Shown: positions 9,506 to 64,000 of the stretch, one piece after another
Layout of the letters: the number at the start of each line of letters is the position of its first letter
Position numbering within the stretch: position 1 is the first letter of the stretch
Source of the DNA: Desulfovibrio sp.
GTDB lineage: Bacteria > Desulfobacterota > Desulfovibrionia > Desulfovibrionales > Desulfovibrionaceae
DNA length: 64,000 nt
Assembly (NCBI GenBank): GCA_016218665.1
Contig: JACRDI010000010.1
Span: 37,000 to 100,999, forward strand
Direction: 5' to 3'
Made by a program: the position numbers and the translations under genes
The notes under the pieces: generated by a model
Databases searched by the model: none
The model's input: only the letters and a program-made list of their open reading frames with translations
Told to the model about the DNA's origin: nothing

Positions 9506-10414
9506 ATGAGCCAAGAGCACAGAGACGTGCTGGTCTTCGGCGCGGGCGGGTTCATCGGCTCCACCGCGGTGCGGCACCTGCGCGAGAACGGCTGGAACCC
9601 CGTGGCCTACACCCGCCAGGACTGCGACCTCACCGACGCCGACGCGGTGAAGCGGGTCTTCGCCCAGCGCACGGCCCCCTGCCGGGTGCTTTTGTGCGGC
9701 TGCGTCAGCCGGCACTTCGAGGACAGCTTCGCCACCCTGGTCAAGAACATCGCCATGGTGGAGAACTTCGTGCGCGCCGTGGCCCCCGGACAGGTGCTCT
9801 CCTGCGTGTACTTGAGCTCCACCGACATCTACGGCAACCGCCCGGCCCTGCCCATAACCGAGGACACCGCCGCCCTGCCGGAATTCTACTACGGCGCGTC
9901 CAAGCTGGCCAACGAGACCCTGCTGCTGCGCGCGGGCCTCGTGGACTTCCCGGTGGCCTGCCTGCGCCTGCCGGGCATCTACGGCCCCACGGACCAGGGC
10001 CACAGCATGCTGGGCATGTTCGCCCGGCGGGTGCTGCGCGGCCAGGAGCTGACCATCTTCGGCGACGGGAGCACCCTGCGCGACTTCGTGCTGGTGACGG
10101 ACCTCTGCCGCGTCATCGAGGCCCTGCTCGACCGGCCGCACCACGGGGTGCTCAACGTGGCCACGGGCAGCAGCATGACGCTGCTGGACATCATGCAGCT
10201 GTTGGCCAAAACCTCCGGCCGCGAACTGAACCTGCGCCATGCCCCCCCGGGGCCGCGCTCCCACGACCTCGTGTTCCACACCGGCGCGCTCGTGGCCGCC
10301 CTGGGCGGGCACTTTTCCATGACGCCCTTGGACGAGGGGGCGAAGATCCTCATCGCCTCCCTTCTGGCCGAGGCCGAAAAGAACGGAAACGGCGCGGCAA
10401 GCGCCCAAGCATAG
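9506..10414 (+). CDS. NAD-dependent epimerase/dehydratase (SDR)
   Basis: VLVFGAGGFIGSTAVRHL; YLSSTDIYG; YYGASKLANE. Confidence 0.9.
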   Translation: MSQEHRDVLVFGAGGFIGSTAVRHLRENGWNPVAYTRQDCDLTDADAVKRVFAQRTAPCRVLLCGCVSRHFEDSFATLVKNIAMVENFVRAVAPGQVLSCVYLSSTDIYGNRPALPITEDTAALPEFYYGASKLANETLLLRAGLVDFPVACLRLPGIYGPTDQGHSMLGMFARRVLRGQELTIFGDGSTLRDFVLVTDLCRVIEALLDRPHHGVLNVATGSSMTLLDIMQLLAKTSGRELNLRHAPPGPRSHDLVFHTGALVAALGGHFSMTPLDEGAKILIASLLAEAEKNGNGAASAQA

Positions 10415-60705: not shown

Positions 60706-60885
60706 GGCGGCCTTGCCTCCGCATATTCTCCCGCTTTTGCCTCCCCCCCGCTTGCGCCACCGGCAGCAGGCGCGGCCAAAAACAAGAAGGGTCATCTGAC
60801 ATTTTTCAGGACATGAATAATCTAGACTTAATCAAAGTGTTAGATAGATCATGGTGTTGAATGGGACAAAATTAGGGATAATAAT

Positions 60886-62043
60886 ATGGACAGAGCTGAG
60901 GACAAGCTGCTGGTTACCAGGGTCATGACCTTCAAGTCCGGAAAGGTCGCCTTCAGCCGAAACTACAGCCGCGAGGCCGTGGTGGAGGACATCGTGCGCT
61001 TTGAGGCGTTGTTCCACGCCCTGGCCGCGTTGCCGATCGTGCCGGGGCTGGCCGCCCAACTCGACACCGACCTCATTCGCCGGTCCATCTTCAGCACGGC
61101 CGCCATCGAAGGCAACCCGCTCAGCGAAGAGGAGGTCGGAGAGATCCTGGCCGAACCGGCGGGGAAAACCGTGCGCGCGCGCGCAGAGCAAGAGATCGTC
61201 AACCTGGGCAAGGCCTACAGACGGGTCGCGCCCCCTGTCCCGGGCGAGCCCCGTGTGCCCTTTGTCGTGACGGAACAGTTCATCCGGGAGCTCAACCAGA
61301 TCATCACCGCGGACATCAACCACAAGGACCACACGCCCGGACAATACCGCAACCACATGGTTGAAGTGGGCAACGCGGACCACGGCGGGAAGTATGTGCC
61401 GCCCAGGATCCTGGCCGACATTCAGCCGCTCATGGCCGCCTTCGTGGAGTGGATCAACTCCGAAGAGGTGATGGGCGAAGGTGCGTTGGTGCGGGCAGCC
61501 CTGGCCCACTACCACCTGGGGCTCATCCATCCCTTCGGCGATGGCAACGGCCGCACGGCGCGGCTTGTGGAGGCCATGATCCTGCAGCAGGCCGGCTACA
61601 GATACATCCCGGTCCTTATGTCGAATTTCTACTATAAGAGCATTGACGAATATTACGTCGCCTTCCAGGAGGCGGAAAAGGCGTCAGCGTCCGACATTAC
61701 TCCATTCATCAAATATTTCATGCGGGTGGTCCTGCTCTCCGCCAAGGACATCCAGGACAGAATCCACTGGGGCATCCGCATCATGGCGTTGCGCCATCTT
61801 TACGACGCCTACATGCAGGACAAGACCATCGGGCGGCGGCAGCACGACCTGCTGCAGGTCCTTTTGCTCCATCCCGGCAAGGCCATCTCCCTCAAGGATT
61901 TGCATCTCGACCCCCTGTGCGCGCCGCTGTACCGGAGCGTCAGCGAGAAGACCGCCCGCCGTGATCTGGCGCGGCTCCAGGAACTGCGGCTGCTGCTGGA
62001 GCGTGAACAGGGGCTTGTGCTCAATCCCTTCGTGATGGAGTAG
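60886..62043 (+). CDS. Fic/DOC family protein with N-terminal inhibitory-helix motif
   Basis: HPFGDGNGRTARL active site; FSTAAIEGNPLSEEEV fits (S/T)xxxE(G/N); C-terminal segment resembles a winged helix. Confidence 0.87.
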   Translation: MDRAEDKLLVTRVMTFKSGKVAFSRNYSREAVVEDIVRFEALFHALAALPIVPGLAAQLDTDLIRRSIFSTAAIEGNPLSEEEVGEILAEPAGKTVRARAEQEIVNLGKAYRRVAPPVPGEPRVPFVVTEQFIRELNQIITADINHKDHTPGQYRNHMVEVGNADHGGKYVPPRILADIQPLMAAFVEWINSEEVMGEGALVRAALAHYHLGLIHPFGDGNGRTARLVEAMILQQAGYRYIPVLMSNFYYKSIDEYYVAFQEAEKASASDITPFIKYFMRVVLLSAKDIQDRIHWGIRIMALRHLYDAYMQDKTIGRRQHDLLQVLLLHPGKAISLKDLHLDPLCAPLYRSVSEKTARRDLARLQELRLLLEREQGLVLNPFVME

Positions 62044-62097
62044 CGGCAGGGCGGGGGGAGGCCTTCGCGGAAGGATGGCACGCGCGTGGCGCCATGC

Positions 62098-62189
62098 CAC
62101 GAAAAAGGGCTGAGCCCTTTCGCGTTCAGCCCTTGGCAGTGCTGGCGGAGCGGATGAGACTTGAACTCGCGCCCTCCGACGTGACAGGC
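62098..62189. repeat. direct repeat copy 1: duplicated tRNA-Asp 3' half plus downstream hairpin
   Basis: About 96% identical by eye to 63855..63947 (three substitutions, one single-A indel), same orientation. Confidence 0.93.
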
Positions 62190-62531
62190 AACGCGGCCAA
62201 CCTGGCCAGGCCCGCTGCTGGCCGCTGACGCCAAGATGGCCTGGGCCAGCTATCGCCAGGCCTCGCGCAACGCGCCCGAGCCGGCGGCGTTCCCGCTGGC
62301 GGTGGGGTGGCCGGTGGCGCCGGGGGAGGATGCGCGGGCTATGCCAGACATCGTCATGACGACGCCCAGGCGCGTGAGGCCAGCATATCGACCAACGCCC
62401 CGGCCAGCCCGAAGCCACGGTCTGTTTGCTGGACCAGCTCGGCGAGCTGGTGGACGAAATGCCGGCGACGGCGAACAGCGTCAGCCTTGGTTCAAAGGGA
62501 CACCGGTGATGATGCACCCGCCGCCAAGACT

Positions 62532-63524
62532 TTAGCCAGATAACTTTTGCAAGTCGCCACGGGCGATTCCTACAATCGTCCGCACGAGCAATGCCGCAAT
62601 CACGGTGCTTGCCAGTGTGAGTAAGGCAATGGCGATGACATCCGCCCAAGTTGCCTGGACAAACGCGGCATAACGCAGACCCGCGCCTGCGGCGGCGGCC
62701 AGCGGAAAACTGACAGCCCACCATGACACTCGAAATGGACAGCAGTGCCAAAGGTGTCGAAGATGCGCCAGCAAAACAGCTAGGATAAAGAGTGTCAGGG
62801 CAAACAATCCTTCCGCGAACAGGTCCACCTGTCCCACTGTAATCACATAGGCGGAAAACCCCACCGCAAAAGGCGCCAGCAGAATCAGCAGCGATGGACT
62901 CATGGAAGAAGGCAACGGCTCTTCAAACATCAGCCGTGCGAAGATTATGGTAAACAATGGTATCGCAAAAAACAGCCCGACCGATAAGCCCAACATCATC
63001 AACGCATGGGGCGGCTCGGTAAAATTCAAGGCTGGCACCACCATGGGAATGTCCAGCATGCCCACCAACGGCACGATCCAGGCGGGTGCGGCGTGTATCC
63101 GCTGCTGACGGGTTCCAAGCCAGCGCCCAGCCATCAGCCACGCAAGAACCGCCATTCCTATGGCGCCAAAGATCCACAACCCGTGCGCCAACGCAGTGCT
63201 GACATCGGCCAGTGCGCCGGGCAACAGCAATGCGCTGATGAGCGGCGTTCCGAACAGGGCTCCGGCTATCGGGTGCGCAAACTCGGCCTTGACGTGCTCA
63301 AATCCTGTAGCCGCCTTGATTGCATACGCCACGACCAGCAGCACGAATACGGCCACCGCCACGTAACCGATGGCTTGTGCTATCCACACAGGGGTTCCCC
63401 AGTGCACGTACGCCAGTCGCCAAGCCAGGCCCAAGCCGGCCAGCCCCATGACTGAGCCAAACAAGGCCACGGGTAGCCAAGGCATCCGGGCCGTGTTGAC
63501 GGAGATCGCGGTGCTGTCAGTCAT
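62532..63524 (-). CDS. TDT/SLAC1-TehA family transporter
   Basis: About ten hydrophobic segments (MPWLPVALFGSVMGLAGLGLAWRLAY…); visibly lower GC than the rest of the window. Confidence 0.75.
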   Translation of the reverse strand: MTDSTAISVNTARMPWLPVALFGSVMGLAGLGLAWRLAYVHWGTPVWIAQAIGYVAVAVFVLLVVAYAIKAATGFEHVKAEFAHPIAGALFGTPLISALLLPGALADVSTALAHGLWIFGAIGMAVLAWLMAGRWLGTRQQRIHAAPAWIVPLVGMLDIPMVVPALNFTEPPHALMMLGLSVGLFFAIPLFTIIFARLMFEEPLPSSMSPSLLILLAPFAVGFSAYVITVGQVDLFAEGLFALTLFILAVLLAHLRHLWHCCPFRVSWWAVSFPLAAAAGAGLRYAAFVQATWADVIAIALLTLASTVIAALLVRTIVGIARGDLQKLSG

Positions 63525-63854
63525 GTTGAGCCTCCCCTACGGTTTTAGGTTCAGCCATTATGAAGAAGCCCCCAACCTTGGACCATTTGGCGTGAGAATT
63601 TTCTCAGGTTTGCCTCGGGCCAGACATGCTTGAGGCAAAATCAGCTCCGTCGGGGGCTGGTAGCCGAGGAGGCTTGCGGGCGGGCCTCGTGGTCGTCCCT
63701 CCGCCACGCCTCACATTTGCCTGTGCCCCAACCAGCGACAAAATCCAAGTCGTATTCAGGCGCTCGGTCCAACAAAAGGTGGCGATGGTTTAAGAGGGAT
63801 CCTTTTAGGCATCGCAGACAGGGACAGAAAACCATGCCGAAGTGGCTTTCATTG

Positions 63855-63947
63855 CACGAAAAAAGGGCTGAACCCTTTCGAGTTCAGCCCTTGGCAGTGC
63901 TGGCGGAGCGGACGAGACTTGAACTCGCGCCCTCCGACGTGACAGGC
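63855..63947. repeat. direct repeat copy 2, overlapping tRNA-Asp 3' half and its terminator
   Basis: Pairs with 62098..62189. Confidence 0.93.
63859..63892 (-). terminator. Rho-independent terminator downstream of tRNA-Asp
   Basis: Minus strand AAGGGCTGAAC-TCGAAAGG-GTTCAGCCCTT then a T run. Confidence 0.8.
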
Positions 63948-63977
63948 CGGCGTTATAACCAACTTAACTACCGCTCC
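63901..63977 (-). tRNA. tRNA-Asp (anticodon GTC), encoded CCA
   Basis: GGAGCGGTAGTTAAGTTGGTTATAACGCCGGCCTGTCACGTCGGAGGGCGCGAGTTCAAGTCTCGTCCGCTCCGCCA folds as a cloverleaf; loop CTGTCAC. Confidence 0.95.
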
Positions 63978-64000
63978 GCACTGTAATGATCGTGGTAGGC

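Follow-up and report, generated by a model that had tools for sequence, protein, structure and literature searches.

What placed a second copy of the 3′ half of a tRNA-Asp gene 1.76 kb from the intact gene, with a transporter gene in the gap between them? The window, by which we mean the whole 64-kb stretch of DNA that was analyzed, had been the subject of a sequence-only reading that took this arrangement for an element at tRNA-Asp, either decayed or a satellite. The features to which we refer in answering the question are as follows, with the evidence on which each is called.

60886-62043 (+): Fic-family gene (PF02661) of the left flank, outside the element; orthologues in the congeners G013, G008, and G004
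62098-62189 (-): distal att repeat, a displaced tRNA-Asp 3′ half with its terminator hairpin; repeat search
62190-~62325 (+): relic of a phage tail-fiber-assembly gene (PF16778); Pfam, PHROGs, and DNA alignment with four congener copies
62532-63524 (-): intact TDT/SLAC1-family transporter gene, 330 a.a; PF03595, foreign by GC3 and nearest relatives
63766-63793 (+): remnant of a tyrosine integrase gene, namely its final codons and stop (...VQQKVAMV*); collinearity with the 3′ terminus of an IMG/VR integrase gene
63794-63859 (no strand): integrase-side att arm, from the integrase stop to the tRNA terminator; alignment of 63766-63852 to L075:7802-7888
63860-63947 (-): proximal att repeat, the tRNA-Asp 3′ half with its terminator hairpin; repeat search, the boundary being the edge of the anticodon loop
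63901-63977 (-): intact tRNA-Asp(GTC); ARAGORN, the 3′ half being identical in the congener G001

Copies and boundary of the repeat

The sole tRNA called by ARAGORN in the window was the tRNA-Asp(gtc) gene at 63901-63977 (-), in agreement with the sequence-only reading, and the second copy of its 3′ half and hairpin noted there, in the same orientation at 62098-62189, was recovered by repeat search as a direct repeat of 88 nt (62102-62189 and 63860-63947; 97% identity, spacing of 1,758 bp). When a few extra preceding bases are counted, the stretch common to both copies reaches ~92 bp. Chance is not an issue for a repeat of this length, given that the runner-up direct repeat in the region spans just 18 nt at 83%, and the whole 2.85-Mb assembly holds just two copies. 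The copies differ by three substitutions and a one-base difference in a T run. In the distal copy, one substitution breaks a T-stem pair (as read from the sequence) and two more lie in the hairpin, which is the pattern expected of an unconstrained copy. The distal fragment by itself yielded no tRNA call; a tRNA-Asp was called once the 5′ half of the intact gene had been put in front of it.

Integration by integrases that target tRNA genes splits the gene; the 3′ half carried by the element restores the tRNA, and the half that was displaced comes to lie at the element's far end. The same scheme is stated for the islands of the Islander collection (PMC4383910), in which integrases of this sort are described as using three crossover subsites, the anticodon loop being the one that accounts for 2,083 of 3,919 islands. 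The window shows this tDNA island signature, namely an intact tRNA gene and a same-orientation 3′ fragment lying downstream, with identity between the copies starting at tRNA index 31, the edge of the anticodon loop and a known crossover subsite (class A in Islander). As the repeats enclose only the final codons of a tyrosine integrase gene in place of an intact one, we filed the locus as a relic of a tRNA-gene-integrated element, not an active one.

Phage relics and a transporter gene in the gap

When IMG/VR was scanned for the pattern of the tRNA-Asp 3′ half, one viral contig of 45.4 kb, IMGVR_UViG_3300004241_000005 (the IMG/VR phage below), proved to match it exactly at each end. Its ends have 53 bp in common, GTGCGGG...GTGACAGG (the tRNA-Asp 3′ half), and its PF00589 integrase gene stops ~100 bp short of one end repeat. 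Window positions 63766-63852 align gap-free to the 3′ end of this integrase gene and the adjoining arm (L075:7802-7888) with a score of 86, against a mean of 25.3 (SD 3.7, maximum 50) in 1,000 shuffles. The integrase C-termini (...VQQKVAMV* in the window, ...AQQKAVTA* in the phage) coincide in frame and stop position, indicating that an integrase is present in the window as its final ~10 codons, and the earlier statement that no integrase was to be seen is to be corrected accordingly. The corresponding alignment of the window with the arm of a tRNA-Asp element in the family genome G098 scored 49, and G010 likewise keeps a relic of the phage arm (0 of 300 shuffles reached its score); the resemblance of G002 and G003 to the arm is weak and was not relied on. 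A blastx comparison of the insert with full-length integrases found no more integrase sequence in it, scans of IMG/VR with the integrase protein and with the arm sequence each returned only the same contig, and named phage records held distant integrases only, none covering more than 47% of the query. The ~70 bp past the proximal terminator were at one point considered native DNA, G010 being similar there, a reading that was dropped as the IMG/VR contig shows them to be the integrase-side phage arm, in G010 too.

Beside the displaced fragment, positions 62190-~62325 match PF16778 in Pfam (E 6.9e-07) and the PHROGs category 'tail fiber assembly' (E 4e-05). Alignment with the copies in G005, G014, G012, and G002 places the start of the tail-gene homology directly at the tRNA fragment, with the 5′ part missing and an internal deletion in the remainder. 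This truncated gene is the one piece of phage structural sequence between the att sites, and neither a complete phage gene nor an intact integrase was found between the repeats. The relics of the tail gene and of the integrase lie on the same strand, matching the late genes and integrase of the IMG/VR phage. Among the tRNA-Asp prophages that were fetched, none yielded the tail-gene piece (best E 0.17). Since the relic starts at the fragment and the IMG/VR phage gave no hit to the PF16778 family, one has to suppose either a deletion reaching the att edge or the involvement of another phage; a deletion from the att edge into the tail gene would be the simplest reading.

The one clear gene that had been noted in the insert is borne out as a full-length TDT/SLAC1 transporter gene (PF03595, E 1.6e-37, 129.8 bits with the curated cut-off at 27.9, profile positions 3-331 of 331). 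The closest proteins recovered come from Serratia proteamaculans (80% amino-acid identity) and Rudaea (70%), in both cases over nearly the whole protein, and within the genus the gene was found here only, with none of the 14 congeners carrying it. DNA homology to Serratia ends at the ends of the gene, and the neighboring genes are not in common. The GC3 of the gene is 0.67 versus 0.84–0.96 in five neighboring genes. Judged by composition and nearest relatives, the gene is horizontally acquired and of gammaproteobacterial type, being either former phage cargo or a later insertion into the scar. The insert had also been described as lower in GC, which holds for the transporter gene (58.8%) and for 63525-63860 (56.0%) but not for 62190-62531 (70.2%). 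It is conceivable, given the identical crossover region of the two att sites, that the 1.76-kb unit has remained mobile as a minimal cassette, which a co-resident integrase of the tRNA-Asp clade could excise to move the transporter gene in trans, but we regard this as very doubtful.

The site in congeners and the integrases that use it

All 14 congeners have a single full tRNA-Asp gene followed by tRNA-Val at the locus, and in none of them was a second tRNA-Asp or a 3′ fragment found beside the gene. Where the contig allows it to be read, the gene order is aspS-def-fmt-DUF116-(variable)-tRNA-Asp. The comparison of relatives that had been suggested as a check uncovered empty sites in G002, G003, and G012, with ~190–250 bp from DUF116 to tRNA-Asp and no fragment. 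A Fic orthologue lies between DUF116 and tRNA-Asp in G013, G008, and G004, again without a tRNA fragment, which is why we place the Fic gene of the window outside the element. Both outer flanks belong to the genus of the window.

The interval between DUF116 and tRNA-Asp (60706-62097 in the window, and its counterparts in congeners) is a variable spot in the genus, occupied by Fic, an LPG-synthase/rhomboid-like protein, LysR with a C_GCAxxG_C_C protein, or what may be a TPR-like protein, or else almost empty. In G010, DUF116 and tRNA-Asp are found on separate contigs (G010:C6, L071, and G010:C3, L035, respectively, the latter with the arm relic at ~9780-9860), as though the site had served in a rearrangement.

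The family was also searched for integrases that target tRNA-Asp, as the sequence-only reading had advised. Using the IMG/VR integrase as the query against 247 family genomes, 110 genomes gave a match at E 1e-30. Among the 15 most similar integrases, 14 directly adjoin a tRNA-Asp gene, with tRNA-Val beside nearly all, and the 15th adjoins a tRNA-Asp 3′ half at a cut-off locus in which ARAGORN called no tRNA. The integrases ranked after these adjoin tRNA-Glu, two of them at loci without a tRNA. When 31 integrases were placed in a tree, those of tRNA-Asp sites, 16 in number (the 15 and that of the IMG/VR phage), formed one clade with a support of 0.994. The relic in the window, at ~10 codons too short for placement on the tree, appears to be linked to this clade through its DNA match to the IMG/VR phage and G098. 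The distance to the far-side fragment is ~42 kb for G098, ~10–11 kb for G205 and for G186, ~28 kb for G062, and ~60 kb for G117. Identity in the distal copy sets in at tRNA index 31–34 across the five elements examined (31 in the window), and in G205, G186, and G062 the distal repeat extends past the tRNA into the terminator region, as it does in the window.

The family integrases (L079-L108) thus sort by target, the tRNA-Asp clade versus others at tRNA-Glu (beside tRNA-Lys or tRNA-Gln), in line with what is established about the site preference of integrases. Integrase sequence predicts the tRNA used, providing a usable handle for attachment-site prediction in the family.

Two further observations concern these elements. 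On contig G186:C1, three tRNA-Asp 3′ halves occur ~11, 22, and 24 kb past the integrase (L122 9833-9928; L123 1146-1241 and 2681-2774) and resemble a tandem element array at one tRNA. A second viral contig, IMGVR_UViG_3300040971_000126 (L128; 13,830 bp), has tRNA-Asp repeats at its bounds and an integrase of the same group (45–48% identity), and may be a small element in its entirety or a phage satellite.

Origin of the locus and its likeness to known systems

Together, the repeat boundary, the phage relics at both edges, the viral contig, and an integrase clade confined to tRNA-Asp agree with the element first proposed from the sequence, and we consider it very probable that the locus is a scar left by a temperate phage which had integrated in tRNA-Asp and was mostly deleted, with the TDT gene now in the gap. 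We infer an integration event, an order of deletions, and an arrival of the TDT gene along the following lines. A crossover by a tyrosine integrase in the anticodon loop of tRNA-Asp would have integrated the phage, which would have given tRNA-Asp a new 3′ half and terminator and moved the host's own 3′ half to 62098-62189. The integrase gene would have ended beside the intact tRNA, as in relatives, with the displaced half facing the native neighbors. Large deletions would then have left the final integrase codons with the arm and the piece of the tail-fiber-assembly gene, and the gammaproteobacterial-type TDT gene would have come to occupy the gap, as cargo or afterwards.

A decayed prophage is more likely than a satellite. 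Integrases of the same clade do occur with short spacing, the distal repeats in G205 and G186 being ~10–11 kb off, and the 13.8-kb IMG/VR contig lies between tRNA-Asp repeats with an integrase of 45–48% identity, as a non-phage integrative island or phage satellite carrying the TDT gene as cargo would lead one to expect. The tail-gene piece would then have come separately, yet it abuts the displaced fragment on the strand expected from the late genes and integrase of the IMG/VR phage, and satellites seldom carry a tail-fiber-assembly gene, making such an origin unlikely.

Decay in place of the second copy of an old tandem tRNA-Asp duplication, the outcome that would have undone the proposal, was looked for in the 14 congeners and seen in none. 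Full-length tandem tRNA-Asp genes are present in other genera of the family, ~120–300 bp apart (e.g., G031, G020, G025, and G016); however, the single tRNA-Asp gene of all 14 congeners, with no second fragment, disfavors such decay, and the spacing of 1.76 kb, the truncation at the crossover boundary of five other elements, and the phage relics at both edges speak against it as well, so that we hold it to be the most improbable of the readings. We likewise place little weight on a chimeric assembly, in which the TDT gene or the repeat region derives from another organism or strain. The source assembly is in 45 contigs and 84% complete, the contig stops at window base 64000, 23 bp past tRNA-Asp, and the TDT gene is foreign in composition, all of which would suit a chimera, but both outer flanks are of this genus, the phage parts expected at the site flank the TDT gene on both sides, and the two repeat copies differ at several positions and are thus not a collapsed repeat.

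Prophages in tRNA genes are common, and the tRNA-bounded prophage scar seen here is of an ordinary, known kind. In Desulfovibrio piger, 13 of 18 prophages lie in or adjoin tRNAs (PMC12724379). The locus serves as a well-resolved example of the scar that a prophage leaves between tRNA bounds; it would not pass the filters for size and integrase that published searches for tDNA islands apply, so that scars of this sort are undercounted.

The tDNA-signature islands and prophages of Islander (PMC4383910) resemble the window in their intact tDNA, downstream same-orientation 3′ fragment, and class A subsite. Unlike them, the window element is below the 2-kb limit and lacks an intact integrase, for which reasons the Islander search would reject it. 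The transporter has its counterparts in the TDT/SLAC1 proteins (PF03595) of Serratia and Rudaea (80% and 70% identity to the window protein, respectively), with the gene itself in common and its neighbors not. The tRNA-Asp integrase of G098, 73% identical to the IMG/VR enzyme, abuts the tRNA 3′ end with a collinear arm and a repeat starting in the anticodon loop, as in the window, whereas its element has an open integrase frame, ~42 kb to the distal fragment, and a ~50-bp repeat without the terminator. The IMG/VR phage differs from the window in its intact terminase, portal, replication, and integrase genes, its other terminator, and its lack of a PF16778 match, but has the integrase 3′ end, att arm, and tRNA-Asp 3′ half ordered and oriented as they are in the window.
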